This document shows positions 1,065 to 55,417 of a DNA stretch of 64,000 nucleotides, in pieces. The DNA comes from Erodium maritimum (taxonomy: Eukaryota; Streptophyta; Magnoliopsida; Geraniales; Geraniaceae): positions 31,416,956 through 31,480,955 of the forward strand of contig OY997594.1 of NCBI GenBank assembly GCA_963921825.1. The letters are read 5' to 3'. The notes beneath the pieces were generated by a model. That model made no database searches, was not told where the DNA came from, and was given only the letters and a program-made list of their open reading frames with translations. Both the position numbers and the translations under genes were made by a program. Position 1 is the stretch's first letter, and the number at the start of each line of letters is the position of its first letter.

Positions 1065-1078
1065 TGAGCGAAAGCTCA
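1065..1078 (+). promoter_or_regulatory. LTR GNRA-type hairpin, copy 1 (GAAA loop)
   Basis: TGAGC-GAAA-GCTCA, flanked by CCTAC and CCCC. A splice-acceptor-like TTTTTCAG ends at 1101, 34 nt after the adenine of TACTGA. One of six such hairpins, one in each LTR copy that retains this region. Confidence 0.6.
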
Positions 1079-1350
1079 CCCCTTACCTTATTGTTTTTCA
1101 GGTTCTAAGCGGGAAGTGTACTAGCCGGATGCTCGACGCTTGGGAGCTACGAGGGTCCTAGGCTAGATAGTCTAGAGACGTACCATTTTATTTGAACTGT
1201 TTTACCGTTTGTTCTTACCGAGCTCTGACTCGTGTGGTGTTTAAAGTTTTAAAATTATGAGTTAAGACTTATTGGCTTTATTTTCGTTTAAAATTATTAT
1301 TGTTTTAGTTCACGTCTCGAGTCTGGTCAAAACCGGATTTGGGGCGTGAC

Positions 1351-1537
1351 AAGTGATTATTGAGTGGTTATTGGAGCCTGAGAGCTCGACAGATCCTACG
1401 GGATATTGAGTGATTATTGAGTGGTTATTGGAGCCTAAGAGCTCGGCAGATCCTACGGGATATTGAGTGATTATGGAGTGGTTAATTGAGTGATGTGAGG
1501 GGCCTAAGGGCTCGACAGATCCTGCGGGATATTGAGT
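1351..1537 (+). repeat. 57-58 bp tandem repeat, 3 copies
   Basis: Units begin near 1351, 1409 and 1466 and share AGTGATTATTGAGTGG, then GAGCTCGACAGATCCTACGG. The third is longer and more diverged. Part of the LTR fragment; non-coding. Confidence 0.85.
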
Positions 1538-2385
1538 GGATTCCTTCATGAGAGATGGTGACTGTAGTCTCACCCAAGAGTGTGCATCCTATGGAAGCAC
1601 TACCTTGGTTCCCTATGACTTATGGTCGTGGAGACACTTTCGAGAACACCGAAGATGAGCATCCCTATGGGATGGTTTCCGGTGCTCCGACGTATGTGCC
1701 TCCTTCGGACCGAGGGAAAATCTGATGTGATATGAATACTCTAGTAGATCGGAACATGGGAACCGAGGTGACACTATAATCTATTGATGGATCGGAGGCT
1801 TGAGAAAGCAAGTGGTTGGCACGATATCAATTACTCCTATTTAATCGTTATGATACTTTACATGGATTCCGTTATGGAACCCTCAAGTTAATGTTATTTT
1901 CAAGAAGTGTGAACTATCTTATTCTATCTTGTTTATATATGTTATTTCATCATACTTGCCTTATTCATTTTATTGCATATTATTTCATTGTTGGTCGTTT
2001 TGGTTGTTATTTGAGTTATCTGTTGCACGGTACAATATTGATCTAAAGGTTGAATTGTTAAGGTTTTTCCTACTGAGTGTAAGCTCATCCCCTTTAGTTT
2101 TCTTACTGTGTTACAGGTGTAGCTGATGTCTAGTGAGTTCGAGGCTCGGGAGCTTTTGGACATCTTTTGATTTTTCTTAGAGTTGTGTTGGTCTTGCGTT
2201 TTAAACATGATTTATTTGACTATTTTCGTTGAGCTGTGACTCACTGGAGATTCTAAACTATTTACTGTCGATTTAAGAAGGTTTACTTATTTATTTAGAG
2301 TTTACGTTTATTATTTTTATCGCTTTTCTTTTATCAATTCTGGTCACGTCTTGAGTCCGGTCAAAACCGGATTTGGGGCGTGACA
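1352..2385 (+). mobile_element. Gypsy-type LTR fragment (second family)
   Basis: A second LTR 3' portion directly abuts the first. It ends in the same signature, CCGGATTTGGGGCGTGACA, at 2385. Its interior (1580-1720, ATCCCTATGGGATG, CCTTCGGACCGAGG) resembles the LTR at 55111-57703 in reverse complement rather than family A. No PBS follows 2385. The simplest reading is that the family A element landed inside this LTR, but the left half needed to prove that lies outside the window. Confidence 0.7.
2074..2087 (+). promoter_or_regulatory. LTR GNRA-type hairpin, copy 2 (GTAA loop, wobble pair)
   Basis: TGAGT-GTAA-GCTCA: the loop-closing pair is T-G, a wobble pair in RNA, instead of C-G. An acceptor-like TTACAG ends at 2116, 40 nt from the adenine of TACTGA. 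Confidence 0.55.

Positions 2386-3240: not shown

Positions 3241-3242
<2 letters not shown>

Positions 3243-3287
<45 letters not shown>
3243..3287. repeat. (CAT)n microsatellite
   Basis: Fifteen uninterrupted CAT units. On the plus strand one frame gives a poly-Ser run in a 62-aa ORF, which is a by-product. Confidence 0.95.
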
Positions 3288-3586
3288 TGTTTTTGTATGA
3301 AAGTTGTAGATATTTGAATTCTCTTCGATTTGATATATTATATGAAGCAATTCGGAGTTCGTATGAGAGAGTTATGCCCTTCTCAAGATCAGTCAGTTTC
3401 CAAAACTCCTAAAATCAGGTTTTCCTCTATTTTTGCCTTTTTCCGATCAAAGCACCTATAAAACAAAATGAGAGATAACGTACGAGTATAGAGAGAAAAA
3501 TGGACCAAATTATACAATCTCGGGACTAAAAAGCTCAAGAATGTGGGATAAAATCATCTGGAATCGATGCAATTTATTTCCACATC

Positions 3587-3587
<1 letters not shown>

Positions 3588-3648
<61 letters not shown>
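3588..3648. repeat. (ATC)n microsatellite
   Basis: About twenty uninterrupted ATC units, the same motif as the tract 300 bp upstream. Confidence 0.95.
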
Positions 3649-5510: not shown

Positions 5511-5519
5511 CTAATTCAG

Positions 5520-7465: not shown

Positions 7466-9301
7466 TTTTTTATCAGCAAAGCATAATTTAAATTAAACCT
7501 CTCACAAGGAGGAAGAGGAGTACAACAAAGAGCATCTAGGTACAGACACTCCAACAAAAAAAGACCATGACAACGGCTACAACCTAGGTAGCATAAGTGG
7601 GTACGCAGACCCTGATGATGAATGGGTACGCAGACCCAGATGATGAATGGGTACGCAGACCCAAATGATGGATGGGTACGCTGACCCAAATGAAGAATGA
7701 GTACGCAGACCCAGAAGATGAAACCTGATGATAAAAGGGTACGCAGACCCTGATGATGAAAGGGTACACAGACCTTGATGAGAATGGGTACGCAGACCCT
7801 GAAGATGAAAGGGTACGCAAACCCTGATGAAGAAAGGGTACGCTGACCCTGATGAGAATGGGTACGCAGACCCAGATGAGAATGGGTACGCAGAACCTGA
7901 AAGGAACGGGTACGCAGACCCTGAAATGAACGGGTACGCAGACCCTGAAATGAACGGGTACGCAGACCCTGAAATAAAGGGGTACGCAGACCCGAAAAAG
8001 AAAAAGGACGGCTAAGAAAGGAGACTCACACCCACATATAGCCACCAAGAAGCACAAACAAGGTCTCAAACCCAGAAAAGTCAACCATAAAGCGCAGATA
8101 AGCTAGCCGTCATCCAAAGTAATCCCCAAAGACTTTACCCTAACTTGAAGAGAAAACTGTATCTCATCGGCACCCAAACTCAGTGAGTTAAGAGAAACCG
8201 ACACGCCGACGACCAACATCGCAAAACGGCAGAGATAAGACGGTGTAAAAAACACCGAAACTCAAAATCCCGAAAGAAGGACTCCTCGATTCCAAGGCCT
8301 AAAGACCCAGTACAACCCGTCATAGGCCAACACCTAATGAATGACGGGCCCCGCAACGAGACAGGGGTACAAAGGAAAAACGAAGGGAGCCTAAATCGAA
8401 TGATGAGCAGTAATCCTACTAGTTGCAGATAAAGCCTAAGAGAGGAGAACAGACCTTCCGCGATGACGACCGGTGACGAAACCCGAGTCATAACGAATCC
8501 GAGCTAGGAAACGCCTCCCACGATGAAACTGGACGACGAACCCGAGAGCCACCACGAGCAAGTCCGGAAAACAGCCCAGCCAAAAGAAGGGTTGGGCCGA
8601 AAGGCAAGCCGCAGAGCATGACCCACACCAAACATGGTCAGGTCAGGCCCAATACCAGCCCAAACTGACCAGGCTAGTTGGGCCTAAGCTGGGCAGGCCC
8701 AATACCCAAACCGGGTCCAGGTGACCCGACCCAGTGCAGGACCGGAACCCTACCCGAGCCACCCCCGGACCCGACCCGCGGAAAACGAACCAGACGAGCC
8801 GCCACCGAAGACCAGCCGCTTCTGAGGAGAATGGTGCCGGCGACCACAACACTGGAGCAGAAACACCCCAGACCGCACCCCACGCACCTTCTAGATCCAG
8901 AACAGCCGAACCCGAAGACACCAGAAGACATGCAGATCCGGCGAGACCTCCATTGCCACAACGCAGCAACGCATCAGCAGATCCGGCGAGACCACCACCG
9001 GCCAGCGAGGAGTCAACCACTCCGGCACCAAGGAGACCGGCCTGAACATCTCCGGGGACGCGACAAAGCTCCAGCAGCGAAACCACGGTAACGACGTCGA
9101 AGGAACGGTTGGATTCAAGGGAGAAGAGGTTTGGGGTAAAGGCAGAGAGTCACCTCGCCGGCGACAGCCACAGCCGTGGTGGCCGTGGCCGGAGCCGACG
9201 AGAGAAGAGGGTGGCGGCTGAAGATGTGTGAAGGAAGAAGGTAGATGGGCACAGAAACCAAGTCAGAGGAAAATAGGGTTTTAGTAATACTATTTCAGTT
9301 T
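7466..9301 (-). mobile_element. Non-coding LINE-derived insertion with TSD
   Basis: A minus-strand retroposed element of 1.84 kb. Its 3' end, read on the minus strand, is TTTGCTGATAAAAAAAAA, the same kind of tail as the full-length LINE ending at 22287. It is flanked by a perfect 16-bp duplication, TTTGGCCGACTCCTTT, at 7450-7465 and 9302-9317. The 5' 1.2 kb (9301-8100) is GC-rich with no endonuclease, reverse transcriptase or zinc-knuckle reading in any frame; the 3' part is a minisatellite. It therefore looks like a non-autonomous partner mobilised by LINE machinery. Confidence 0.85.
7597..7995. repeat. Minisatellite of about 16 units, 20-27 bp
   Basis: Core GGGTACGCAGACCC followed by a variable GATGATGAA / GAGAAT / TGAAATGAAC spacer. 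Units recur every 20-27 bp with one longer gap near 7700-7740. Both strands read as open repetitive peptides (GYADPDEN on plus, RVCVPV on minus), which follows from the unit length and is not evidence of coding. Confidence 0.9.
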
Positions 9302-22472: not shown

Positions 22473-24976
22473 TGTCACGCCCCAAATCCGGTTTTGACCG
22501 GATTCGAGACGCGACTTAAGATAAAATAATAATAAAGTACTAAAGATAAATAAACGGGTCTAAAATGCAATTTAAAGTTCCAAAAGTTCAAATGAGTCAA
22601 CAACTCGATAAATGTAATAGTAAACGAGTCAAAACAGTAAAAGATAAAGTACGTCGCTAGACACTAGCTAAACCCTTGCAAGCTCCCAAGCTCCGAGAAT
22701 CCTGCTAGTACAGATCCCGCTCAACACCTGAAACACAACAAAGTAAGGGGGTGAGCTTACGCTCAGTAGGAAAAGTAGTTAAGGTTCTGAACCTCAGTTC
22801 GTCACCATGGATAACCGTCCAATTAGGGCATACTAGTAAGGCACAACTACAAAACAAAGCCTACGGGAAGTTCCCAGTTACCGATCACTCTCACCAAGTC
22901 ATAACCACTTAGAAAAACGCACAAAGCCAAACATCAGGTATAAAACACACAGCGACACACACACAGATATCGTACAACAGTTCCCAACGTCATTGAACGC
23001 ACAAAGCCAATTGCACTAAGCCACTTATACCGTACTGGACCACACAACATCAGTCCCGATACCTTCCTCTCACTGAGACTGAGGGTAACATCCTCGACCG
23101 GAAATCCCTCAGTCCGATGTCTTCCCGTCACACAGACGCGGGGCAATACTCACCATACGTACTGGACCGGCACACACTTCGGTCGTACATCGTCCCGGAC
23201 TACGAGTCATCGGGGTACTGATCACGACATCCTTGGCCTCGATACACTTCACCGGAACTATCCCTCGGTGTAAGTACCGCTACAGTTACGTCTACTCTTG
23301 GAACACACAACAAGGGTACAACACGCAGCACAAGCCATATCTAGTCTCGGTATATCAACCGACCCAGTTCAACATAACACACAAACCGGTCTATCACTCA
23401 CCTGGTCATATCACAACCAAGAGTTCGCGTTATATCAAACAGTGCACACCTGCCCACACACAGTCAAAGCATGCAACACTGAGTATAATCTTGTTTAGAC
23501 TCTCACACAGCGGTTATAACACACAGCACGCAATCCTATGGCTCAACATGGCCCATCTATCAGCACGACAATTCCCAGGAGAAGAAAGCAGGTAACACTA
23601 GTGAATCACATCCTACATGTTACTAAGACTCGTCCGATATTTAATAATTGAAAGCGGCTATTCTAGTGAATCACATCCTATATGCCAACTAGGACCTTTC
23701 CGTTTATTATGTTTCCCTGATCATGCATGCTAGTAACTTTCCGTAATTAAAGCGGTATCCCCTACTTTCCCTACCTCAAGACGATCACAATAGCTGCGTC
23801 TCCTAGCTGCTGACGTCCTGGCCTAACTCCGGTCTTCTCGGGCGGAGTCCAAGTCCGGGTTTAACAGGTAAAAAGTAAAATCATTCCCGATAGTCCAAAG
23901 GTCCTCAGATTTGTCCAATTTGTCCTTAAACTACCATTTTTAAACCATTTAAATTAAATTAATTAGTTTATTAAAACTGGCTGACCCGGATCCGAGAACA
24001 AGACCGAATCCGACCCGGTCCAGAAACTCGACCCGACCGGACCCAAAACCGACCAGAATTCGACTCAGGATCCGACCCAGACACGGTCCAGACCCGAGTC
24101 CAGAACCCGGACCTCAGTCCTGGGCCTGGCCCAATGGCCCGTCTTGATCTGGCCCGAGCCTCTGATCCTGGCCCATGGCCCGTCTAACCCAAGGCCCAAG
24201 TCCGCCTGGCCCGGTCTAAGCTGGAGACGAGGACGGCAGGTGGCTAGGGTTTGCTCCGCCGCCGACGATGGCGTCAGGCGAGCTCGGAAGGAGGGGAAAC
24301 AAGGGCGGGGGAGGGCGGCAGGTTCATGGCGAGGTCGTGGCCGTGGCGGCGTGGCTCTAGTGCGAACCCACGTTTGCTCCCATCACAGATCTGACGAGCA
24401 TGAAGCTCGTCGGCGACGGTTCTGGCTGAAACCGCTCGAATCGAGCTCGGGTTGATGCGTTTTCCGTCACGGCGAGGTCGGGGAAGAAGAACTCGACGAG
24501 GAACAGCTCGAACCTGCTGTTTCTCCGTCGTCGGCGTTGTTTGGCGTTCGGGAAGACGAACCCAGAGAGGGTTTCTCCGGCGTTGGCTCGATTTCGTGCA
24601 CGGTGGGCTCGGTTGGTACTCAGAAGGGAAGAAGAGGGCGAAGGCAAGGTCGGGGATGGCTGCGAGAGGGAGAGAAGAGGAAGAGAAGGGAGGAGAAGGC
24701 TTGAGAGCGAAGAGCGAGAGGGTGCTGCGTTTTCTGCCTCGGGGTGCGTGCGGCGCGAGGAAGAAGAAGCTGGACGGGCGCTCGCGTACGGTTTTTTCCA
24801 TGGGCTGCGTGCGTGTGGGCTTGGGCTCGTCTTCTGATGGGCCCAAGTCTGGCCCAGACCTTGCCCAGCCCAAACTTCCCTTTCCCCCCCTTTTTTGATT
24901 TTCTTTTTATTTTGCGCTCGATCCAATTTCTCGATCCGAAATTCAACCACGACACTTTAGCTCGATAACTGTAACA
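22473..24976 (-). mobile_element. 3' LTR of minus-strand Gypsy A
   Basis: Read on the minus strand it begins TGTTACAGTTATCGAGC and ends GGGGCGTGACA, the TG...CA format. It is the same family as 37781-39871 but 413 bp longer. The main difference is a block at about 22883-23303 that the other copy lacks. Arg-rich ORFs on both strands at 24140-24970 come from GC-rich LTR DNA and are not genes. Its outer end at 24976 meets a truncated Copia LTR instead of a polypurine tract. No 5-bp TSD matches the far end at 39872. Confidence 0.85.
22752..22765 (-). promoter_or_regulatory. LTR GNRA-type hairpin, copy 3 (GTAA loop)
   Basis: TGAGC-GTAA-GCTCA on the minus (LTR sense) strand; acceptor-like GTTTCAG ends at 22728 on that strand, 35 nt away. 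Confidence 0.6.
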
Positions 24977-24979
24977 ATT

Positions 24980-26293
24980 TATCCTTAGACCAAGGCGTCT
25001 TTGTGATCGCTATGTAGTCAACAATTGAGTTTGACCTGAGCCTAACGTTGTCCGTAACAGGGCTTCCATAACGGCCAGGATTGGCTTGGGGACGGGCTAC
25101 ATGAGTGACATGAAAGGCGACTAAGGGATTTATCCCTCATACTGAGGTATGGGAAAGATATCGGTTCTCGTCCGCTTGATTGAGAGTGACTGAAAGAATA
25201 GCATGGCCATGCACATGATACTGGGTATCATATCTTCAGTCACCTCACATATCAAGGAACGGTGATTGAGAATAATAAGGATGACAGCTCTATGCCTTAT
25301 CTCAATCAGGATATCGGAGATAAAAGGATAATGACAGGGATGACGGAAAGGTTAGAATCGACAGGGTCGATTCGTTATGTAGTGTCAGGCAATACTAAAG
25401 TCTCGTTAGTTTCCACTTAAATAGGATCAAGTAAAATGGAATTTTACGTTGATCTATTGACATGCATAAACCTAAGGGTCACACCGGAGGATGAAACTCA
25501 TTGACACATTTATGGAGAATGGCCAAAAGGGAGTTGTCTCGGGACATGATCAAAACTGGGTTTTGAGTCATGTGCCCGTAAGTGAATAGGAGTTTACGGA
25601 TCAAGACAAGGCTTGGAGTCTTGGGATTGATCGCGTCGGATAATCTTGGACATTTCCGGTATGGAAGGCTTGGAGGCGATGAGCGAATCACGAGACCTCG
25701 TTGGAAATGGCCACGGGCCATGTTCCAAGAGGTCCATGAAAGGCCCATGCAACCAAGGCCGATGGAACTAATTAATCAAGTCTTGATTAATTAGTACTAA
25801 GTAAGGAAGACAAGGATTAAGGTGTTGGTGATTCACCACCTAACCCAATCTTGTCTAGCCATACTTTGTCCTATTTACACCTTACTTGACACCATACTTG
25901 TCACATGCCTTTAGTTGGAAAAGTATGGGTTTTGTTATGTTTAAGTCATCTTTTTTCAACATAACAAACACAAGACAAGAATAGGAAACACAACTTCTCT
26001 CCCCCTTCCCTTGCAATTTCGTGTTTGGCAAGTTCCCACCTCCATTTTTGTGTTCTTGAGTCCTCAAAGAGAAGAACTACGTGGCTTTGATTCCCATGTG
26101 GATACGTAGGCGTCTTGGAGACTCAAGCCAATCATTCGCTAACCGGTGTTCTTGTTTCGGTAAGAAATAGTGTTGAATTTTTCTCTTGTGAATCCATTCT
26201 TTGTTAGTTGTTTCATGGTTTAATCGTCTCTTGGTTTTCATTGATTTTCCGCTGCGAGTTGGTTCATCTCCAACCATACCTCGAGACCCAACA
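24980..26293 (+). repeat. Copia left LTR, 5'-truncated
   Basis: Matches 31664-32977 nearly base for base and ends ACCCAACA. The segment equivalent to 31291-31663 is absent. ORFs in it (for example 25479-25748 minus) recur in the right LTR and are not genes. Confidence 0.9.
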
Positions 26294-26294
26294 G

Positions 26295-26307
26295 TGGTAT
26301 CAGAGCC
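26295..26307 (+). other. Copia primer-binding site (tRNA-iMet type)
   Basis: TGGTATCAGAGCC one base after the left LTR, complementary to the initiator methionine tRNA 3' end. Confidence 0.9.
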
Positions 26308-27849
26308 GTGCTACCTTCGAGATTCACAAGACGGTGTTCAAAGTTTTGGTTTTGCTTGAAAGTTTCGTTTTTGGCATGTTGTTTTGCTAAATTGTTTGAT
26401 AACATGTTTTAAATTATTTTTTATGGATTTAATGCATGTAAAATGAATTTTTGAAAATTATTTCGAATCTGGAAATTTTGAAAAAAGTTTGATTTTTCGG
26501 GTCTCGAGAGCGGGACTCTCGGGGAGCCGAAACCGGGACCGAACGGGGCTCCGTTGGACGAAGCTAGGCCAAGCATGACCATTGGATGGTTGATATGCTA
26601 AGGCTAAACCGTTTTGTTAGTTATGACGAGTTTGGAACCGTCATGACGAACTCGAAGATCAAATGTTCAAAAGTTTCATTTTTGAACGGTTTCGATAAAC
26701 CAAACATCAAAAAATTTCGAAACTTGGCTATTAAATAAAACCGGAAAATCACATGATGTTTGATAACATGATTGTTTGATAACACGATGTGTGATGTGAT
26801 GTTGGCATGGTGTACATAATAGCCCCGAGCTCGATTTAATTATTTATCGCTTTTCACGGCCTGCGAGCCGTTAGAGTTAGCGTGTAATTATTCTTTCAAG
26901 GTGTGGTCGTCGAACCACTTGTTTGTAATATTTATTTATTCCCGACCTGCGAGTCGTGTATTAAATTTTAATATTTTACTCAAGACGAAGAAAGGGCGAA
27001 AAGGTCATTTGGTGGCTTTTCGGGTGTTGGCATCGGCTTGGAGTCGGTGGAGCTCAAGAAGCTAGTGGGAGTTAGTTTAAGGGGCTATTATGTGCACATT
27101 TATCGCTTTATGCTTGGTTTAGTTTATGCATGATTAATTCTATGTGTTTTAGAATTGCATGCTTAACTTTATTTACCGAGCATATCACCTCACATGCAAA
27201 GATAAAATTGGAATTTTAATCCTTGTGTGTGAGCCCTTAGAATCGTCATTACATTTGATGTAGTTGACGGGTTTGAAGGAAGAATTACATTGGATGTAAT
27301 TTGAGGCATCATTGCACTTGGAATGTAGTTGATGTGCTCATCGCATCTAGGATGTGTCAAAGTTTTAAACACAACCGGACAAGTAAAAACGGGTCATGTC
27401 TGATACCTCCCAATTATCAACACCTTACTACCTCCCCGTCCTATGGGTGTCGTGCACATTAGCGGAGCATCCATGGGAAAGCGGGGTAGTAGGTTTGGAC
27501 GACATATGTGGGTGTCGTGCGCATTAGCGGAGCACCTACATAGTGACGAGCCATAGTTGAGAATTGGTGGACCCGACTACGATTCTCAGCCTGAGGTTGA
27601 GCTAGGGTAACAGATAGGGTAAGCCGTGTACATAAGTACATACCCTAGCCAAGAGTCACATTGGATGTGATTGGATGGAGTCCTACCTACATAGCTCGAT
27701 TAAGTGGTGAGCATTAGTTCAGCTTAATCGAGTGAATCAAGGATCTTGGTTTTAGATTCTAAAGGTTTAGAATCGATTGTTGGTGTTTAAGCTTGATCTT
27801 CATAAAATTTATTCAGTTTACTGATTGAATTTTATCGGTTGTAGATCAA
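26308..27849 (+). other. Copia untranslated leader
   Basis: About 1.5 kb between primer site and gag with no gene. A GGGTGTCGTGC..CATTAGCGGAGC segment occurs twice (about 27444-27474 and 27509-27538), and ACATTGGATGT-like motifs recur at 27240-27350 and 27658. Confidence 0.6.
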
Positions 27850-30800: not shown

Positions 30801-31150
30801 GAGTAGACGCTAGTTTTCCAAGACAAATCCAGATGACTTTAGAAGTCAGTCAAGATATGTTTTTACGCTGAATGACAGAGCTTTAGCTGGGAGAGCGTAA
30901 AGCAAGATACCATTGCCGAATCTACGACAGAGGCCAAGTACATGGATGCTGCAGAGGCAGCTAAGGAGGCTATGCGGATTTGGAAATTCATGGCAGGGCT
31001 GGGTGTAATTAAAAACCCATCCAGCCCGGTGAATCCATTTTGCGACAACATAAGGGTCATTGCGCAAGCTAAAAGCCCAGATCGCATAACAAATCCAAAC
31101 ATGTACTGCGGCGTATCCACCTCATCAGAGAAATATTGAACTGAGGTGAA
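27850..31150 (+). pseudogene. Copia gag-pol polyprotein, decayed
   Basis: Gag starts at ATG 27850 (MANSANINSLSLKTILD) and is soon broken, and most of gag is deleted. A ruined CCHC knuckle remains near 28160 (YFYCQQPGQWNRDY). Protease follows (WVLDTRTESHKCTN, Gly of DTG changed to Arg). Next are the pre-integrase box with HCHLGRINKKRL and CKVCLMGK (28800-28920) and the integrase core (29030-29300, LDRGGKYLNTELL). RT lies at 29910-30590 (WLGAMREEMQSM, QVDVKTAFLNGNL, IYGLKRTSRSW). RNase H remains near 30900-31130 (ESTTEAKYMDAAEAAKEA). Stops and frameshifts are frequent. The RT YVDD box is deleted: FLVL runs straight into IENDIPTL. Confidence 0.85.
28220..28350 (+). repeat. 48-bp tandem repeat, 3 copies, in Copia gag
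   Basis: Units start at 28220, 28268 and 28316, each a multiple of three and reading DLKKGSGTAPSS-like. They lie between the knuckle and the protease. Confidence 0.85.
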
Positions 31151-31277
31151 GTGAAGATAACCTATATTGCAACAGATGATAACATAGCCAACCCTTTGAG
31201 TAAGGCAGTGTCACTGCTTGAACATGTTAGACATGTAAAGTCGATGGGGACATAATGGAGTTTAGATTGGAACTAGG

Positions 31278-31290
31278 GCAAGTGGGAGAT
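31278..31290 (+). other. Copia polypurine tract
   Basis: GCAAGTGGGAGAT immediately before the TGTTAG start of the right LTR. Confidence 0.85.
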
Positions 31291-32977
31291 TGTTAGTCTT
31301 AGTGCCCGTAGTTCAATCCTAAATGTCCAAATGTATATATCATCGTTAGCAATAAAATTAAAGAGACTTTATATTACTTATGTGTTGGAGTAATATATCG
31401 ACGTGTGCTCTGATCTATGCCCACCATGCGAATAGAACCATAGATCGAGATAGATCACACTAGATGGGTCCCTAGTCAACAAAGCTTCACTAGAAGCGAC
31501 TAGTATGAAAGATGGCTCTTTATGGCTTACGTTATGTTAGTCATTGGAATGGGATTCCGGAGTCTGATCATAGATATCATGTGGGACATGATATTGGACG
31601 ACCCGCCCTGAATATGTGCCATAGATTAAGTCATGAACATATTCAGTGTCGTAGCTTGTCATGTATCCTTAGACCAAGGAGTCTTTGTGATCGCTATGTA
31701 GTCAACAACTGAGTTTGACCTGAGCCTAACGTTGTCCGTAACAGGGCTTCCATAACGGCCAGGATTGGCTTGGGGACGGGCTACATGAGTGACATGAAAG
31801 GCGGCTAAGGGATTTATCCCTCATACTTAGGTATAGGAAATATATCGGTTCTCGGCCGCTTGATTGAGAGTGACTGAAAGAATAGCATGGCCATGCACAT
31901 GATACTGGGTATCATATCTTCAGTCACCTCACATATCAAGGAACGGTGATTGAGAATAATAAGGATGACAGCTCTATGCCTTATCTCAATCAGGATATCG
32001 GAGATAAAAGGATAATGACAGGGATGACGGAAAGGTTAGAATCGACAGGGTCGATTCGTTATGTAGTGTCAGGCAATACTAAAGTCTCGTTAGTTTCCAC
32101 TTAAATAGGATCAAGTAAAATGGAATTTTACGTTGATCTATTGACATGCATAAACCTAAGGGTCACACCGGAGGATGAAACTCATTGACACATTTATGGA
32201 GAATGGCCAAAAGGGAGTTGTCTCGGGACATGATCAAAACTGGGTTTTGAGTCATGTGCCCATAAGTGAATAGGAGTTTACGGATCAAGACAAGGCTTGG
32301 AGTCTTGGGATTGATCGCGTCGGATAATGTTGGACATTTCCGGTATGGAAGGCTTGGAGGCGATGAGCGAATCACGAGACCTCGTTGGAAATGGTCACGG
32401 GCCATGTTCCAAGAGGCCCATGAAAGGCCCATGCAACCAAGGCCCATGGAACTAATTAATCAAGTCTTGATTAATTAGTACTAAGTAAGGAAGACAAGGA
32501 TTAAGGTGTTGGTGATTCACCACCTAACCCAATCTTGTCTAGCCATACTTTGTCTTATTTACACCTTACTTGACACCATACTTGTCACATGCCTTTAGTT
32601 GGAAAAGTATGAGTTTTGTTATGTTTAAGTCATCTTTTTTCAACATAACAAACACAAGACAAGAATAGGAAACACAACTTCTCTCCCCCTTCCCTTGCAA
32701 TTTCGGGTTTGGCAAGTTCCCACCTCCATTTTTGTGTTCTTGAGTCCTCAAAGAGAAGAACTACGTGGCTTTGATTCTCATGTGGATACGTAGGTGTCTT
32801 GGAGACTCAAGCCAATCATTCGTTAACCGGTGTTCTTGTTTTGGTAAGAAATAGTGCTGAATTTTTCTCTTGTGAATCCATTCTTTGTTAGTTGTTTCAT
32901 GGTTTAATCGTCTCTTGGTTTTCATTGATTTTCCGCTGCGAGTTGGTTCATCTCCAACCATACCTCGAGACCCAACA
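31291..32977 (+). repeat. Copia right LTR, complete
   Basis: 1,687 bp, TGTTAG...CCAACA. The full length shows how much the left copy lost. Confidence 0.9.
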
Positions 32978-37777: not shown

Positions 37778-37780
37778 AAT

Positions 37781-39871
37781 TGTCACGCCCCAAATCCGGT
37801 TTTGACCGGATTCGAGACGCGACTTAAGATAAAATAATAATAAAGTACTAAAGATAAATAAACGGGTCTAAAATGCAATTTAAAGTTCCAAAAGTTCAAA
37901 TGAGTCAACAGCTCGATAAATGTAATAGTAAACGAGTCAAAACAGTAAAAGATAAAGTACGTCGCTAGACACTAGCTAAACCCTCGCCAGCTCCCAAGCT
38001 CCGAGAATCCTGCTAGCACAGATCCCGCTCAACACCTGAAACACAACAAAGTAAGGGGGTGAGCTTACGCTCAGTAGGAAAAGTAGTTAAGGTTCTGAAC
38101 CTCAGTTCGTCACCACGGGTAACCGTCCAATTAGGGCATACTAGTAAGGCACAACTACAAAACAAAGCCTACGGGAAGTTCCCAGTTACCCACACAACAA
38201 GGGTATAACACGCGGCACAAGCCATATCTAATCTCGGTATATCAACCGAACCAGTTCAACATAACACACAAACTGGTCTATCACTCACTCGGTCATATCA
38301 CAACCAAAGGTTCACGTTATATCAAACATTGCACACTTGCCCAGACACAGTCAAAGCATGGAACACCGAGTATAATCTTGTTTAGACTCTCACACAACGG
38401 TTATAGCACACAACACGCAATCCTAAGGCTCAACATGGCCCATCTATCAGCACGTCAATTCCCAAGAGAAGAAAGCAGGTAACACTAGTGAATCACATCC
38501 TACATGTTACTAAGACTCGTCCGATATTTAATAATTGAAAGCGGCTATTCTAGTAAATCACATCCTATATGCCAACTAGGACCTTTCCGTTTATTATTTT
38601 TCCCTGATCATGCATGCTAGTAACTTTCCGTAATTAAAGCGTTATCTGCTACTTTCCCTACCTCAAGACGATCACAACAGCTGTGTCTCCTAGCTGCTGA
38701 CGTCCTGACCTAACTCTTGTCTTCTCGGGCGGAGTCCAAGTCTGGGTTTAACAAGTAAAAAGTCCAATCAGTCCCGGTAGTCCAAAGGTCCATAGATTTG
38801 TCCAATTTGTCCTTTAATAACCATTTTAAACCATTTAAATTAAATTAATTAATTTATTAAAACTGGCTGACCCGGATCCGACTGGATCCGAGAACCAGAC
38901 CCGAATCTGACCCAGTCCAGAAACCCGACCCGACCGGACCCAGAACCGACCCGGATCCGACTCCAGACCCGACCCAGACACGGTCCAGACCCGAGTCCAG
39001 AACCTGGAACTCACTCTTGGGCCTGGCCCAATGGCCCGTCTGGATCTGGCCCGAGCATCTTGTCCTGGCCCAAGGACCGTCTAACCCAAGGCCCAAGTCC
39101 GCTTGGCCCGGTCTGAGCTGGAGACAAGGACGGCAGGTGGCTAGGGTTTGCTCCGCCGCCGGCGATGGCCTCAGGCAAGCTCGGAAGGGGGGAAACAAGG
39201 ACGGAGGAGGGCGGCAGGTTCACGGCGAGGTCGTGGCTCTAGCGCGAACCCACGCTCGCTCCCGTCACAGATCTGACGAGCACGAAGCTCGCCGGCAACT
39301 ATTCTGGCTGAAACCGCTCGAATCGAGCTCGGGTTGATGCGTTTTCCGTCACGGCGAGGTCGGGGAAGAAGAATGCGACGAGGAACATCTCGAACCTGTT
39401 GTTTCTCCGTCGCCGGCGTCGTTTTGCGTTCGGGAAGACGAACCCAGAGAGGGTTTCTCCGGCGTTGGCTCGATTTCATGCACGGTGGGCTCGGTTGGTA
39501 CTCGGAAGGGAAGAAGAGGGCGAAGGCGAGGTCGGGGATGGCTGCGAGAGGGAGAGAAGAGGAAGGAAGAGAAGGGAGGAGAAGGCTCGAGAGCGAAGAG
39601 AGAGAGGGTGCTGCGATTTCTGCCTCGGGGTGCGTGCTGCGCGAGGAAGAAGAAGAAGCTGGACGGGCGCTCGCATAGGGTTTTGGGCATGAGCTGCGTG
39701 CGTGTGGGCTTGGGCTCATCTTCTGATGGGCCCAAGTCTGGCCCAGACCTTGCCCAGCCCAAACTTCCCTTTTTCCCTTTTTCCCTTTTTTTATTTTCTT
39801 TTTATTTCGCGCTCGATCCAATTTCTCGATCCAAAATTCAACCACGACGCTTTAGATCGATAACTTTAACA
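37781..39871 (-). mobile_element. 5' LTR of minus-strand Gypsy A
   Basis: 2,091 bp, minus strand TGTTAAAG...GGGGCGTGACA, followed by the primer site. Highly similar to 22473-24976 apart from a deletion at 38190/38191 corresponding to about 420 bp of the other copy. LTR promoters normally drive the element's transcription; Arg-rich ORFs at 38857-39877 are not genes. Confidence 0.9.
38060..38073 (-). promoter_or_regulatory. LTR GNRA-type hairpin, copy 4 (GTAA loop)
   Basis: Same sequence and context as copy 3. Confidence 0.6.
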
Positions 39872-41000
39872 ATTTAATTCTTTTGAACCGGGGCGGGCTT
39901 TACATAACTGGTTCTCAGTGATATGGAACATATCGTTTGCCTTTATTTTTGTTACTTCATTAGGAGGTTGTCCTTTCTCTTATATTCTCGACATTATCTT
40001 TTTGACTTTGATTAAAGTTGAATTTTATGTTTTATGAGTTCTCTTTCTAAGCTCTTGGAGAAGCTCTCTATCGTAACACCCAAAAGCCATGTTTATGACT
40101 ATGGTTATGCTTCTCTTCTCTATACATCCTCTCTCTTGCACCTTCCCTATGATCATGCGTAGGTTTTTTCTGTTAGGGCTTCGTTCGAACCGCCTCTAGC
40201 CACCGCGACGTTGACCTTCTTCTGCCACCAACGCAACGTGTCCCAACATGTTTCGGTCCCTCCTCTGCAACTTCGAGGGTTTCCGCCTCTGAGGTCGTCG
40301 TCCCCAATGTTGCCGCCGCCGTCTCTGAGGTCGCCGCCGCCTCTAATGTCGTCGCGGTCTCTGGAGTCGTCCTTGAAGTCGCAGCCGGCGCGCCCTTCTC
40401 CCTAGCCTCCACCGCCGCAACCGCCTCGACCCCCTTCACGATTATGGATCTGGCTAATTAAGCGGGTCATTTTTACTTTATTTGAGCTTGTTTTTACAGG
40501 TTCAATTCCTAGTAAACAGATAATCATGGATTTTTTCAGGGAGGGAACCCCGATTATGTATTGCCTCCACTATTACTGTTGAAGTCCTTGGCCAATTTTC
40601 AGAGCAGGAATTCCAGTATCACCTTCTCAACCTTCGTCTTACTTTCTTACCTATACGACATCCCAACTCAATGTTAGCTGGCCCACCCAATACCGTCAGG
40701 GACGGTTATAGTATGAAAAGAATTGCGACACAATTGTGTCTTTTGTCTGTTTTTCGTGGTCAGGGATTTATCCTTGATGCACTCAGATGTATTTGAATTT
40801 AAATTAATGAATTGCACCGTTCTCTAAAAAAAACTTGAACTTTATCTTCTGAAGTTAGTTTTTTTTTTCTCTTTCGATAAGCTCAAAATTTTATTCGAAA
40901 AAATAACTTTTTTAAGGTAGATAGATCTAAAATGTTTAAGATAAAAAACGATTATAAAAAAGCTCGAACGAGAGCTCTAACAAAATTAACCTTAAACCAA
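39872..41000. other. Intervening DNA with probable LINE-derived remnants
   Basis: 40040-40832 looks like a short non-coding LINE-type insertion: a GC-rich head, no ORF, and a tail CCGTTCTCTAAAAAAAA. Flanking TTGAATTTTATG (40017) and TTGAACTTTATC (40835) could be an eroded duplication. At 40857-40905 a T-run followed by GATAAGCTCAAAATTTTATTCG resembles another LINE 3' end on the minus strand. Both calls are tentative. Confidence 0.4.
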
Positions 41001-41825
41001 AGGATACGAGTCCGGGAAAAGAACTAGTATGAAGACCAAACTCTCCAAGGGCCCAAGGGATTATCTAGTTAGTTCTTGACTAGATGAATCCAACTAGTTT
41101 AATTAGGTTAGTTAGTTAGTTAGTAACCAAGTGAGACCTAATTACCACTAACTAATTAAACATATTCCACTATCCTAATTACATATGACACTTGCCTTGT
41201 GATGAGAGATTAGTGAGGTGATGGACACCACTTATCTCCACATGCAAGGCCATTAGTCATCATTCTCATGCATTTTGAAGAACAAGAGTTAGAAAAATTC
41301 AGCAACACTACTCTACTACTCCCTCTTGGCAAGAACCCCATAGCTCCATGTTGTGGTTGTGTTTTTGAGTTCTAAACCAAGAACTACATGGCTTTGATTC
41401 CTTGGAGGATACGTAGGCGTCTTATAGACTCAATCCATCCATCTTCCTTGGTGTTCTTCATCTTATCTCTTGTGTTCTTGAACAAGTTAAAGAAAAATCT
41501 GAGCATAATTTTCTGCCCAGATTTTGTCCGACCAGCAGCTTTCAAGAGGCTGATCAGAGGTTCATCCAAAGTCCGATGAAGCTGATTCTTGGAGTGAATG
41601 TTCTTCACATATGTTTATTCAAAGTGACCGGTTGAATTTCGATTTCAACGGCTCATTGTACATATACACGAGCTGCAAGTTGAGCAACTTGCACAAGATA
41701 TTGGTAAGATAACTTGTGCTGAAATTTTGCTCTTGTGATTCCATACTTTGGTAGATGATTCATGGTTTAATGGTCTCTTTATTTTGTTTGATTATTCCGC
41801 TAAAATCCTACCAAGAGAACCAACA
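41000..41825 (+). repeat. Copia-type left LTR of second composite
   Basis: 41173-41825 matches 47994-48657 closely and ends AACCAACA, one base before a primer site. The true 5' border is not clear; 41000 is a guess. Confidence 0.7.
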
Positions 41826-41826
41826 G

Positions 41827-41839
41827 TGGTATCAGAGTC
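41827..41839 (+). other. Copia-type primer-binding site
   Basis: TGGTATCAGAGTC after the LTR end; tRNA-iMet type with one change. Confidence 0.85.
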
Positions 41840-41956
41840 GCGCTACCTACGAGAATCACAAGAGGAAGCTGAATTTTCGGTTTTGGTTCATGCATGTTTC
41901 GGTTTTGGCTTGTTTTTGCCTACTTGATTGATAACATACTATATTTAATTGCTTGA

Positions 41957-42893
41957 TTACAAGAACCGCCCCCGGTCGACCCTAGTCGAACCGTTGAAGT
42001 TTGGCAAAAGTTGACTTTCCGTCGGAAAAGTCAACCGATGACTCCGGGAGTCATTCGGGACCTTTCCGGGCGCCAAAAAGCTTAGTCGTCATTACGGTTA
42101 GCTTAGTTGGGTCGTTTCCTTTCAAATGGGTAATTTTGCAAAAAAGTCAAACCTGGGTCAAACTAGGTCTAATTAGAGACTAAACCAAATTAATTTAAAT
42201 GTGTTGAGATATTTTGGGAAAAGGTGGTCCCCACATGGACACTTGTCCATGGTGGCTTGGAGGAGAAGAAATGGGTCTAGAAAGACTCATTTTCCCTCAT
42301 ATGGGCCAAAATAGAAGGAGGGGAGCTAAGGGGCAAGGGGGTCTTTTGTACCCTAGGTTAAAAAGGCATCAAGGAGCACAAATCAGCCCATTTCTCATAG
42401 TTGGCCGAAAATCACACAAGGGGGAGAGAAAATTGGGAGCTCCATAGCTTGAAGAAGAAGAAAGTAGAGAAAGGGAGCTCTTTTGGTGGATTTCCTTCTC
42501 AAATCTCCTCCAAACAACTTCGTCTTCATCCCTTCTTCATTCCTAAGGTGAGTAATCCTTGAAAACCCACTTTTGATGAAAATTGGGGTTATGGGTTTGT
42601 TGGAGAAAGCACAAACAAGGTTGGGTTTCCATGGGTTTTGAGCTTTTGTTGTTTAGATGATTGATTTATGGAGAAAAGTAAGAGAAATTGATAGAAATCA
42701 TTTGGGTTTATGTTGTTTTGATGAAACCCACATGGGTATTGAGGTATTGAGGTTTATGGGACTGATTTGGAGGTTTTTAGATGACAAAAATGGAGTTTTG
42801 GGGGTTTGATTTCGTGGAGAAGAAGCTGGAGGAAGAAGAAGGACGGAGTTGTCAGCCCCGTCACGGATCCGTGACGTCACCCGTGACGGTGAA
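41957..42893 (+). mobile_element. Plus-strand Gypsy LTR, 5' portion only
   Basis: Begins ACAAGAACCGCC near 41957 and runs parallel to the reverse complement of 45676-44750 (AAGTCAACCGATGACTC, GAGTCATTCGGGACC, GGTGGTCCCCACATGGACAC). It stops at 42893, where the inverted LTR starts, and has no 3' half. With its neighbour it forms an inverted repeat of nearly 1 kb per arm. Confidence 0.75.
42851..42892. repeat. Palindrome cluster, CACGG/CCGTG
   Basis: Includes the perfect 14-bp palindrome TCACGGATCCGTGA (42861-42874) and GTCACCCGTGAC beside it. A larger cluster of the same words lies at 56646-56778 in another LTR. Confidence 0.8.
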
Positions 42894-43173
42894 TGTCACG
42901 CCCCAAATCCGGTTTTGAACGGACTCGAGACGTGAGTTAAAATAATGATAAATAAATAAACTTGATAAAGTAAATCTCCGAGTAAATCATAATACAAGTC
43001 ACAACGATGAGTCAAAAGCTCAAAATATAACAAAGTGCGACAAGTTTAATACAAAATGAGAAGGTACGTCTCTAATACACTAAACACCCGGACCCTCAGT
43101 AAGCTCTCGAGCCCTGAGACATCCAACAGCCTACTCACCAATGAAACCTGAAAAACAGTAAAAACCGAGGGGG

Positions 43174-43187
43174 TGAGCTTACGCTCA
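43174..43187 (-). promoter_or_regulatory. LTR GNRA-type hairpin, copy 5 (GTAA loop)
   Basis: TGAGC-GTAA-GCTCA on the minus strand; acceptor-like TTTTTCAG ends at 43148, 37 nt away. Confidence 0.6.
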
Positions 43188-43445
43188 GTAGGAAAAAGTA
43201 GTAAAGTGGACGGATTCCCACTCCGGGTCAGAAATATTAGGTCAACAATTCTTACTAAAACTGAGAACACAAATAGAAACTGAAAAGAACACAAGATCTC
43301 AATAATAGCACCACATCAAATGAACACACGAGTAACAGGACATTGTACTACTAAGTCCACTACGGACGTAACTTAAGACTCAACAACACATAAAAATAGA
43401 CAAGCACTCAGAAAACCGATCATCATGCACAACTCAATCAATACA

Positions 43446-43705
43446 TCATACCGGCATTTACCCTCGGTCAAGATGTCTTCCCGGACACACATCATCAGGG
43501 TGAAACAAGTACATCGTACCGGAATACCCATCGGTCTAGATGTCTTCCCGGACACACAGCATCGGGGTGAAATACTACATCATACCGGAATGTCCATCGG
43601 TCTCGATGTCTTCCTGGACACACAACATTGGGGTAAAACACTACATCATACTGGAATGTCCGTCGGTCTCGATGTCTTCCCGGAACACATATCGGGGCAA
43701 ATCTC
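43446..43705. repeat. 65-bp LTR minisatellite, 4 copies
   Basis: Units share CATACCGGAAT, CATCGGTCT, GATGTCTTCCCGGACACAC and GGGGTGAAA. Same LTR region as the unrelated repeats at 592-840 and 1351-1537. Confidence 0.9.
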
Positions 43706-45676
43706 AATGCACACATACCGGACCGGCACACACCTCGGTCGGGTATCTTCCCGTCACTCGGGGTACAAGTCACAACACATGAGACCACACAACCACAATA
43801 TATCAAACTCATCATACCAACGACGCTTATCGTCCCAACTTACCAAGAAGACCGCATCGGTCTATCATTCACCCGATCATTTCACAAGACACACAATCAT
43901 ATCATAATCACCTCATTCATTCAACCAAACATAACACGAGACAAACATTCGTATTGCATTCATCATAATTCACATAGTGTCCTATGGTTCCAAACTTGAC
44001 TAAGAGTGTAACATGCATCGACTTTAAGGACAAACAACCATCAACAAACACAATCAACATGCAATCCTAAGGCTCGACATGGCCATTCTACCAGCACAAC
44101 AATTCTCCATAATTGAAAGCGTTTAAACTAGTGAATCACATCCTATATGCATACTAAGACTCTTCCGGTTATTATCGTAATTGAAAGCGGTTATTCTAGT
44201 GAATCACATCCTATATACAAACTAGGACCTTTCTGGTTATTATTATCATATAGGCATACTATTAGCATTATTTAACTTAAAAGTGGGGTTTACTACTCTT
44301 CCCTACCTTGAAAGCAATCCAATCCTAGCAGCTAATGACATGGCTAGCTTCCTCCTCGTCCTCTCACGCGGTCCAAAGGCCTCCTCCTCCGTCAAGCTCG
44401 GGTCCAAGGTCTTGGATCACAAATAATACTATAATTAATAAACAATTGAAGTCGGTTTTATAGTGAACTAACTAAATTAACCCGAATTACAAAACACTTG
44501 GGCCCAAAGGTGAATTTGACCCGAACTAGGCCCAATTCGCCCAGCCCACAGATCTGGAATCCGGCCCGGGCCGTGCCCCTCAGAGGCCCGGAACCAGAAC
44601 CGGATTGTGCCCCTCGGAGGGCCGGAACCAGGCTTGGACCGTGCCACTCAGAGGGTCGGTCTGAGACCCGTTTCGTGCCGCTCAGAGGGCCGGCATCGAG
44701 CCCGGACCGTGCCGCTCAGAGGACCGGCACCGAGTCCGTTCTGTGCCGCTCAGAGGGACAGAATCAGACCCTTTCCGTGCGAAAACTGGGCAGACTCAAG
44801 CCCCTTCTTCCCCAACTTCGTTTCTACGAAAATCTACTTCAAAAACTCCATTTTATTAACATCAAACCTCAAAATCACTCACCAAAACCCTCAAACTTCA
44901 ACACCCACAATGGTTTTCCTCCAAACATCAACAAACAACACATTTCTAACCAAAACATCCATCATCACTTCACTAGACAATCATCTACCAACACTAACAT
45001 CAAAACCCAACAAGTTCTAGCAAAAAAAAAAGGAAACCCACAATCTAAAATTGATTGGAAAGAGATAGTGAGAGTTCACTTACCTTTAGGATGATGAGAT
45101 GATGAAGAATAGAAGGTTTTGGAGAGATTTTGATGAAGAAATGGCTTCAAGTTCTTCCCTTTTCTCCCTTTCTTCTTCCTCAAGTCAAGAAGCTCCTCCA
45201 CACTCTCTCCCCTTTGTGATTTTCAGCTGTACTAGTGAAGAATGGGCTGAATTGTCATCAAATAATGCCTTTAACCTATAGTTGAAATGACCAAAAGGGC
45301 CCTCCTTGTTTCCTTCTTCTGTTTTGGCACTTATGAGGGTATAATGGTCCATTTGCAACTATTTCTTCCCTTCCAAGCTAGCATGGACAAGTGTCCATGT
45401 GGGGACCACCTTGTCCTTAAATAAATCCAGCAACTTTAATTAATTAGGATTTAATCAATAAAAAGTCTCCATTTGACTGAATGTTGACTTTTCCAAAATT
45501 ACAGTCATTTGAAAGGAAATGACCCAACTAAGCTAACCGTAACGATGGTTAAGCTTTGTGGGCCCCGGAAAGGTCCCGAATGACTCCCAGAGTCATCGGT
45601 TGACTTTTCTGGTAAGAAGTCAAATTTCGCCAAGACTCACCGGTTCGACCGGGATCGACCGGAGGCGGTTCTTACA

Positions 45677-47993: not shown

Positions 47994-48657
47994 TCCTAAT
48001 TACATATGACACTTGCCTTGTGATGGGAGATTAGTGAGGTGATGGACACCACTTATCTCCACATGCAAGGCCATTAGTCACCATTCTCATGTATTTTGAA
48101 GAACAAGAGTTAGAAAAATTCAGCAACACTATTCTTCTTCTTTCTCTTGGCAAAAACCCTCATAGCTCCATGTTGTGGTTTTGTTCTTGAGTTCTAAACC
48201 AAGAACTACGTCTTTGATTCCTTGGAGGATACGTAGGCTTCTTATAGGCTCAAGCCATCCATCTTTCTTGGTGTACTTCATCTTATCTCTTGTATTCTTG
48301 AACAAGTTGAAGAAAAATCTGAGTAGAATTTTCTGTCCAGATTTTGTCCGACCAGCAGCTTTCAAGAGGTTGATCGGAGGTTCATCCAAGGTCCGATGAA
48401 GCTGATTCTTGGAATGAATTTTTTTCACATATGGGTCTTCAAAGTTATCGATGGAATTTGGATTTCAACGGTTCATTGTTCATATACACGAGCTGCAAGT
48501 TGAGCCACTTGCCCAAGATTGGTAGGATAACTTGTGCTGAAATTTTGCTCTAGTGATTCCATACTTGGTAGATGATTCATGGTTTAATGACCTCTTTGTT
48601 TTGTTTGAATATTTCCCTGAGAGTTGGTTCCTCCCGACCCTACCAAGAGACTCAACA
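47994..48657 (+). repeat. Copia-type right LTR, 5'-truncated
   Basis: Matches 41173-41825 and ends CTCAACA. It joins Gypsy B RT at TCCT (47994-47997), four bases common to both parents. Confidence 0.85.
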
Positions 48658-53196: not shown

Positions 53197-55110
53197 AATG
53201 AATTTGATTCCAGATTGAGGAAAGATGGGTTAATTTGGGCGTGGGTGGGAGTCCATCTGAGGGGCAAATCAAATCCAAGGCAAGGATTTTGGAAAGTTAC
53301 TCTCAGGAACACTTCCAATGCAAGTGGGTGAATTTGGTAAACTCATGTTTGTTATTTCTCGATCACCCTGAGTTATTGTTGAGTATACCTTGCTTTCTTA
53401 TTGTACCCTGCAGAAGCCTGTGCACAACTTACACCATCTTATGTCCTGCTTTGCATTATACAAAATTTGCTTCCGTAAAAAAAATAGCTTATATTAGCAG
53501 TTTGAGATTATGGTGCCATGAATTTTTAGTTTTATGATCTATTAACTTTATTATATTGTTCAATTGTAATTTGGCAAGGAAATGAAAAGTTGCATTTGTT
53601 GGAGAGCCTCTCTTATAAATGATAGTGTTCTGGTAAGATGTTGAAACATATAAGTTTATATTGCTGAAACCATGACTGTGTTGTCATGGAATGTGGAGAT
53701 GTTGAGTTTCTTCCATTCAAATTAGTTGTTGGTGTGTCATTTTCTGAACTATGAGATTTTAATTGCAAAAGTCTTCCTTGTTCATGGCATAACCAGGAAA
53801 AAGAAAGAAAAGGACAAGAACTCCATAAAGGCAAAAGAAGGGTACAGCAGATTACATAAAAGAAATAATGAGGATGTGATGTTAGCAGAAACTAGCCATT
53901 ACTTTAGCATAATGCTACATGCATCATTGACTTGGAAAATAAAAGAAAGGAATGAAAAGTTAGGTTAATGCAAGATGGAATGTCTTTTCTACAAGTAATT
54001 ATCATAAGTGGGGGCCATTATTTAATTTTGTTTTTCATTATAGGTATCAATGTCATGGTGTGGCATGTTTTTGCTTTGTTTTCTCTCTTTGATTCTATGC
54101 TCTAGGTGAGTTTTGGTTAGGTCTTTTCTCAAAGTTGGTTGTTTGAGAGATACCCATTTTCTGATGATCAAACCAAACCCTAGTAAAAGAAAAAACTAAC
54201 CACCTGATTACAAACAACATAGAAGAAACACTTGCTACCTACTACTTTGCTGTTTGACAGAAGTGAAACTGCATTGTCACTTGTGACCTCTATATGGGTG
54301 GTGGTGGTGATTGGTTTCTATATCAAAGTGCATTTTATTATATAGATCACAAAACATAAGCCCAGCCCACACATTCAACATCCTTTTGCAAACAGAGATT
54401 TGAACATAAGGCTGGTATGGGAAGGAAAACTTTGTCACATGTTGGACTATTTTTGTTATGGGATAAAGCACAAGACCAGAGCTCGATGGAAATCTTATAT
54501 TAAATCAAGAAGAGGTTGGATTCCACCCCCATGTAAAATTTAAGTAAATTAATTTTTAAGGATGGAAGAGAGTTCACTGATCACAAGACCAATTTAAAGA
54601 GACTTCTTAATTTTAATAGCTTACTTTTTTTATCAGCAATGTATATTATAAAGTTTAATTTTTTTTAGAGAATATAAAAAGGGGTAAAATACCATGACAA
54701 AGATTGAGCCTAAACAATAATATCAGAGGATTGAACAAGTCTCAATCTATATCGGATCCTAAGAAAATCGAACCAATATAAATAAAGAGCATCCTTATAA
54801 AATAAACCTCAGTAACCCAACAAAAACGTAAACCATGATTTAATAACTAGATTTTACACTCCATTAGCTCGAAACACAAAGGAACTCAATGATCATCACC
54901 AAATGCTCCTCAATATGCACTAACAATAATTCATATACATTACTACTCCTTGACGTAGAATTCCAACATAACACTAAAAATTGTATTAAAATGCATACTA
55001 ACCTTTTTTATATACTAAAATAAAGAGGACAAATCTAATAGAAACTCCTCTTATCCTACAAAACTGTGTGAACCTTTCTTAGCTATACACTCTTAAGATC
55101 CAACATTTAC
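53197..55110. other. 3' UTR and intergenic DNA
   Basis: No gene visible. At 54624-54665 a T-run and ATCAGCAATGTATATTATAAAG read, on the minus strand, as a LINE tail (ACATTGCTGATAAAAAAA). The AT-rich 54660-54960 may be its 3' UTR, 5'-truncated; no TSD found. Confidence 0.45.
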
Positions 55111-55403
55111 TGTCACACCCCAAATCCGGTTCTTGCCCGGACTCGAGGCATGACCAGAAATAAATGATTTAAATGGTAACAACTCAACAATAAGTTCCTG
55201 TAAAACTCCAATAAGAAACTCAAATCCACAAAATTTAGTTTAAAACATAAACAACCCTCCAGGGGTGTAATAATAATCCTCTACAAAATCTGTTCCAAAC
55301 GGAAATAAAATAAAACGAAGTCGTTATAGACACCCACACCGAGAAGCTCCCGAGCCTCTACTCCTCAATCAAGCATGTAAACACAACAGTAAACTCACAG
55401 GGG

Positions 55404-55417
55404 TGAGCTTGCGCTCA
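55404..55417 (-). promoter_or_regulatory. LTR GNRA-type hairpin, copy 6 (GCAA loop)
   Basis: TGAGC-GCAA-GCTCA on the minus strand. The downstream acceptor-like CAG of the other copies is changed (TTTACAT). Confidence 0.55.

Follow-up and report, generated by a model that had tools for sequence, protein, structure and literature searches.

Long terminal repeat (LTR) retrotransposons of plants generally lack introns; a 2025 review singles out Ogre and EVADE as exceptions and also refers to spliced BARE1 RNA (PMC12786077). Here we describe a hairpin that recurs in LTRs within a 64,000-nt stretch of the Erodium maritimum genome (contig OY997594.1, positions 31,416,956 to 31,480,955; hereafter the window). 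The original prediction, made from the letters of the window, had interpreted it either as a structured RNA element or as the branch-point and acceptor module of an LTR intron. Our analysis favours the second interpretation: with a probability of roughly 0.83, the LTR of a high-copy Ty3/gypsy element, probably of the Tekay/Del type, contains a complete GT-AG intron, and the hairpin is located at the branch-point end of this intron. Such an element would resemble Ogre (Ty3/gypsy), EVADE and BARE1 (Ty1/copia) in being a plant LTR retrotransposon whose RNA is partly spliced, and would differ from them in that the entire intron is contained in the LTR (PMC12786077, PMC6317226). The nearest parallel is found in the SpIREs of LINE-1, in which splicing occurs within the 5' leader and the spliced RNA is reverse transcribed and re-integrated; LINE-1 is a human non-LTR element, whereas the intron-less copy described below is an LTR with a 5-bp target duplication (PMC5860796). 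Titles and abstract openings of the open-licence literature yielded no description of a plant LTR with an intron of its own, so that a prior description elsewhere is possible, and intron-in-LTR phrases matched an HIV vector and no plant LTR in that literature.

The hairpin was found at six sites of the window, always on the LTR sense strand, as originally predicted. Five sites show the exact motif TGAGC-GNAA-GCTCA, while the one at 2074 carries a single C-to-T change:

1065-1078, + strand: hairpin TGAGC-GAAA-GCTCA (motif match; predicted hairpin fold).
2074-2087, + strand: hairpin TGAGT-GTAA-GCTCA, with the C-to-T change at a CpG (motif match, fold prediction).
22752-22765, - strand: hairpin in an LTR of the 38060 subfamily, probably of the same element (motif match, LTR alignment).
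38060-38073, - strand: hairpin in a 5' LTR, with the primer-binding site (PBS) TGGTATCAGAGC after the LTR (motif match, fold prediction).
43174-43187, - strand: hairpin (motif match, fold prediction).
55404-55417, - strand: hairpin TGAGC-GCAA-GCTCA, with an alternative fold predicted (motif match, fold prediction).

All six LTR ends of the GGGGYGTGACA type found in the window contain the hairpin. The LTR end GGGGCGTGACA establishes its orientation, as does, in the case of 38060, the PBS directly after the LTR. Allowing up to two mismatches, ten matches were obtained compared to a mean of 1.28 in dinucleotide shuffles; this count includes three sites twice, as the motif is near-palindromic, and a further, unrelated match at 39705. 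The LTRs at 22752 and 38060 share 98.3% identity over the 413 bp adjoining the LTR end and 91.2% in the remainder, aligned over 1,702 columns. Judged by these alignments, they belong to the same subfamily and most likely to a single element, 22752 to its 3' LTR and 38060 to its 5' LTR, and the six sites would therefore represent only five independent copies. The uneven similarity between 22473-24981 and 37781-39904 (about 98% near the 3' end, 91% elsewhere) points to gene conversion or recombination among members of the family.

Parts of the initial description had to be narrowed. The flank CCTAC...CCCC is not strictly kept: it reads TCTAC in 55404 and TCCCC in 2074. The C-G to T-G change in the stem of 2074, which had been noted because it still pairs as RNA, is present, but as it lies in a CpG, deamination in the course of methylation decay may explain it as well as wobble pairing. 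Variation confined to the N of GNRA describes the six window loops (GAAA once, GTAA four times, GCAA once), but not the GTCA loops found in the genome or the 9-nt loop of a related contig (L003, see below).

Downstream of the hairpin, a tract that varies in length and letters and is pyrimidine-rich throughout leads to a candidate 3' splice site. Five window acceptors, 23-29 nt past the hairpin, rank 1, 10, 18, 19 and 30 among the 8,021 AG sites on both strands. Those linked to 1065, 38060, 22752 and 43174 are the best sense acceptors of the scored LTR stretches, and the one at 2074 ranks third in its partial LTR. CA is kept in all six window copies and CAG in five, so that the acceptor-like CAG of the original prediction is absent from 55404 only. 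We also inspected 68 genome copies with the exact motif (8 loci and 60 further listed places, all on contig C1). An AG lies 12-48 nt past the hairpin in 65 of them, as CAG in 58, and the following base (+1) is G in 60 of the 65; deviating copies show TAG (five) or CA without G (several). The distance from hairpin to AG is 23-31 nt in 61 of the 68 copies, and in 42 the hairpin-linked AG is the best of its strand at the locus. Branch points are located some 18-40 nt before the AG. The hairpin contains TACTGAG in its 5' arm and CTCAC at the base of its 3' arm, and each fits the branch-point motif partly. TACTGA lies 290-334 nt from the LTR end in all eight LTR ends compared (six in the window, L003 and L004), with TACTGAC in L004 and a TACTGAT elsewhere in L003. 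The other LTR families of the window (24977-26293, 31661-32977, 41173-41940 and 47994-48657, some ends being approximate) contain neither the hairpin nor donors of the kind described next, and a single TACTGA, 1,154 nt from the end.

Two candidate donors precede this acceptor (a slash marks the splice site). Donor 1 (AG/GTAAGT or variants of it) is located some 500-600 nt into the LTR and ranks 2, 13 and 65 among the 7,108 GT sites of the window; in 14 of 24 LTRs, the top donor of this region is an AG/GT located 495-609 nt from the LTR start. Donor 2, AG/GTAGGG, was detected in all four window families that retain this part of the LTR. Of 60 genome copies, 46 have it on the sense strand up to 3 kb upstream of the hairpin, compared to three on the antisense strand. 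GT-AG ends with the consensus surroundings of a U2-type spliceosomal intron are present. The predicted introns and the LTRs that contain them are:

114-1101, + strand: predicted LTR intron 2, AG/GTAGGG...TTTTTCAG/GT (splice-site scores).
1353-2116, + strand: 3' part of intron 2 in an LTR ending at 2385, acceptor TTACAG/GT (LTR end, acceptor score).
22728-23774, - strand: predicted LTR intron 2 of the 3' LTR copy (splice-site scores).
38036-38661, - strand: predicted LTR intron 2, 626 nt (splice-site scores).
43148-44306, - strand: predicted LTR intron 2, its acceptor being the top-scoring AG of the window (splice-site scores).
55377-56408, - strand: homologous intron 2 with the acceptor AG lost; the segment missing from L076, see below (alignment).
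44409-45083, - strand: predicted LTR intron 1 after AAG/GTAAGT, acceptor end approximate (splice-site scores).
56511-57121, - strand: predicted LTR intron 1 after GAG/GTAATG, acceptor end approximate (splice-site scores).
42548-42553, + strand: homologous donor 1, AAG/GTGAGT, in a partial LTR of opposite orientation (alignment, donor score).
22473-24981, - strand: truncated 3' LTR (alignment).
37781-39904, - strand: 5' LTR, TGTAAAGCCC...GGGGCGTGACA (alignment, LTR ends).
42894-45676, - strand: 3' LTR, TGTAAGAACC...GGGGCGTGACA, after the sequence AAGGGGGTAGAT, which resembles a polypurine tract (LTR ends).
55111-57703, - strand: LTR, TGTAAGACCC...GGGGTGTGACA (LTR ends).

At 41955-42838 (+ strand), a related LTR is represented by its 5' part, which has a donor 1 of its own and adjoins the LTR at 42894-45676 in opposite orientation.

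A further observation concerns a copy in which intron 2 is missing. A 31-nt pattern spanning the exon 2-exon 3 junction of the 55404-like family gave one match in the genome (L076, two mismatches) and none in the controls, and a looser pattern recovered the same place only. L076 holds a complete solo LTR (761-2281) from TGTAAGACCC to GGGGTGTGACA, located between two copies of CCCTC, a 5-bp target duplication. Compared to L033, it matches from the LTR start through exon 2 at 87.9% identity and then continues directly with the post-acceptor exon to the LTR end at 91.8%; the corresponding identities to the window LTR are 86.2% (57638-56408) and 82.7% (55374-55111). Relative to L033, the 1,062 nt between AG/GTAGGG and ACAG/ are absent, and with them the hairpin, TACTGA and GTAGGG, while donor 1 and its downstream sequence are retained. 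As more distant window families keep the intron, L076 is most simply explained by an intron loss. Its ends coincide with the predicted splice sites, and it looks like a spliced, reverse-transcribed copy.

Several observations weigh against an LTR intron. By the donor and acceptor matrices used, donor 2 scores are middling (rank 63-149 of 7,108 GT sites), 14 of the 60 genome copies lack AG/GTAGGG, and the window contains one AG/GTAGGG, at 34580, that is not part of these LTRs. The acceptor AG of 55404 is lost (TTTACATGC). Among the 68 sampled copies, three lack an AG within the range and two more have only AAG, and on the sense strand of the respective pieces the acceptor ranks sixth in L003 and fifth in L004. 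ATG depletion past the acceptor, suggestive in the window, was considered as proof of exons and dropped as an argument for the acceptor: 49 genome LTRs contain 147 ATGs compared to 174 expected past the acceptor and 239 compared to 268 before it, which does not distinguish the two sides. Genome searches with an exon 1-exon 3 junction pattern and with exon 2-exon 3 junction patterns of two other families gave no matches. L076 is the only spliced-type copy found, with few patterns tried, and is thin evidence; moreover, donor and acceptor share AGG, and a deletion through microhomology could produce an identical junction.

This last point leads to the alternative that L076 arose by a chance deletion between the AGG at both ends, while the conserved blocks are protein-binding or other DNA-level motifs of the LTR. 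We consider this unlikely: among many possible AGG pairs, those used are the predicted donor and acceptor, and the conserved blocks have the reach and the letters of splice sites.

Pol fragments in the window match retroviral protease, reverse transcriptase (RT), RNase H and integrase zinc-binding domains of Ty3/gypsy type, and the host of the predicted intron is a probable Tekay/Del chromovirus. No Chromo match was found in a 57-amino-acid (aa) window fragment, and weak ones below the curated cut-off in the relatives L001 and L002. The sequence TGAGCGNAAGCTCA occurs in 6,949 + 7,007 = 13,956 exact copies in the 763-Mb genome compared to 3 + 1 for the reversed pattern. RT alignment led to L001-L004, plant-type Ty3/gypsy contigs in bacterial assemblies (Mycobacterium, Geminicoccus, Solirubrobacter, Labilibacter), most likely plant contamination of these reference assemblies. 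L002 and L003 are 98.7% identical over 899 nt and both contain an open frame of about 1,500 codons, pieces of which match, in L002, gag, zinc knuckle, protease and integrase-end domains, with the weak chromodomain falling below the Pfam cut-off. The L001 LTR contains CAG/GTAAGT, and the L002 LTR a TATA box and CAAG/GTAAGG with no ATG between the guessed start and that donor; AG/GTAAGT and AG/GTAAGG are the top sense donors of their LTR pieces. Near its LTR end, L003 shows TACTGAGCAA-(9-nt loop)-TTGCTCACCCC, a pyrimidine tract and CCCAG/G. Nine ATGs remain between that acceptor and the L002 frame, so that splicing would not clear the leader. L004 has TACTGAC with a weaker TATAG/G and lacks a comparable hairpin. 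The branch-like motif and the position of the acceptor thus persist where the GNRA loop has changed and even, in L004, where the hairpin is absent. A second branch/acceptor-like module in L003 (868-888, TACTGATATTTGTTTTGCAG/G), about 250-280 nt before the hairpin-linked one, contains the best acceptor of that piece. Three further contigs (L005-L007) were scanned for the motif and left unused. The RT search gave no match in viral contigs, none in phages and three plasmid records, all below 60% identity.

An independent RNA element in R/U5, serving packaging, dimerisation or translation, with the acceptor-like sequence being incidental, would account for a stem that is little changed in the listed copies, for the 13,956 exact copies and for loops that are mostly GNAA. 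If intronic, the hairpin would also be confined to unspliced RNA, as a packaging signal should be. We examined the pattern CCTACT-N12-ACCCC, which leaves the 12 inner bases free but fixes the flanks and the outer T-A pair, so that changes there are unsampled. It occurs at 6,439 + 6,526 genome places compared to 278 + 279 for a control. Among 100 listed places, 70 are canonical hairpins, 22 variants and eight unrelated sequences. The variants comprise eight one-sided changes that still pair, six broken pairs and no compensatory change, which rules out covariation as proof of a structured element; the stem is conserved without covariation, an outcome that the original prediction had itself named as one that would refute it. 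GTCA loops, which are not GNRA, occur in six of the 100 places, and the bases flanking the stem (CTAC, CCC) are about as conserved as the stem. The hairpin fold is predicted in four of five independent copies, 55404 preferring another fold, and five local stretches (71-77 nt) were not significantly more stable than shuffles (z -1.13 to +0.37). No Rfam family, such as hammerhead, matched the window at the gathering score, and exact-pattern scans of viral contig and genome contig collections gave no matches. The lack of compensatory changes, the GTCA loops and the equally conserved flanks, together with the persistence of TACTGA in L003 and L004 and the loss of the hairpin along with the rest of the intron in L076, render the stand-alone structured element of the original prediction highly improbable, while its branch-point/acceptor module is strongly supported by the acceptor ranks, the conserved donors, the position of TACTGA and one LTR precisely without the intron.

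Plant poly(A) sites favour CA or TA in U-rich surroundings, and the U-rich tract ending in the well-kept CA might be such a site, marking the border of R and U5 downstream of the hairpin, yet this would leave the +1 G, the conserved upstream donor and the exact donor-to-acceptor loss in L076 unexplained, and with the TAG and G-less copies not deciding the matter, we regard it as very improbable.

Under the preferred reading of an intron inside the LTR, the RNA would start near a TATA-like region of the LTR and reach donor AG/GTAGGG, followed by at least some 0.6 kb of T-rich sequence. Next would come CCTACTGAG...CTCACCCC, where each arm of the hairpin holds a motif resembling a branch point, and then the pyrimidine tract and CAG/G. 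The LTR would end about 250-270 nt past the acceptor (in the window), followed by the PBS in the full element. The segment between donor and acceptor would be removed, perhaps routinely, by splicing. As thousands of copies hold the motif compared to one intron-less LTR recovered by the few patterns tried, unspliced RNA appears to be the usual template, and the RNA may be only partly spliced, with the unspliced form normally reverse transcribed. This form would indeed be needed, since spliced RNA could not regenerate its own LTR if the intron lies wholly within it. As both branch-point-like motifs lie inside the hairpin, folding could slow the first splicing step. It may be speculated that the hairpin hides the branch adenosine and thereby keeps enough unspliced RNA as a template for reverse transcription; an intronic hairpin could equally mark unspliced RNA for packaging. 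That the hairpin as such has a regulatory role is a tentative proposal which we hold at clearly less than even odds. Similarly speculative is a wider model, in which a plant chromovirus lineage possesses a conserved, regulated LTR intron, the branch-point-hiding hairpin checks splicing, spliced RNA serves translation and unspliced RNA serves as genome, with leakage leading to intron-less LTRs.

LTRs serve as promoters and in insertion dating. The proposed split between messenger and genome would be directly testable in an element whose motif has about 14,000 genome copies, intron-less LTRs would offer a genomic footprint for measuring leakage, and an LTR intron predicts many cryptic splice sites scattered throughout the genome.

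Some features are shared with other elements. Long LTRs are also found in Tekay/Del chromoviruses such as Bongo of beet (2,561-3,000 bp, one 1,049 bp); a text search of the Bongo paper gave no hit for 'splic' and one for 'intron', in a host gene (PMC3605345). Sirevirus LTRs likewise contain short palindromic motifs that are highly conserved amid divergent plant LTRs, but these are repeated boxes upstream of TATA in Ty1/copia elements (PMC2829016). Transcripts of tapeworm TRIM solo-LTRs begin in the LTR and use an LTR splice donor, whereas their acceptors are described in flanking sequence (PMC4558846). LTR models for plant Ty3/gypsy elements were reported not to be buildable owing to length variation (PMC3601003).

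Next to these LTRs, another element at 24977-32977 (LTRs 24977-26293 and 31661-32977, 98.4% identical) abuts the truncated edge of 22473-24981; its first LTR is followed by the PBS TGGTATCAGAGC, and its LTRs lack the hairpin. A 224-aa open frame without Pfam match (39171-39845, - strand) lies in the GC-rich part of the 38060 LTR and may be due to chance. Positions 7586-8023 form a tandem array of 24-25-nt units around GGGTACGCAGACCC. The window also encodes a 918-aa MoCo-sulfurase-like protein with at most 80% identity among the 120 matches listed; of those with a species name, proteins of Dovyalis and Theobroma came closest.

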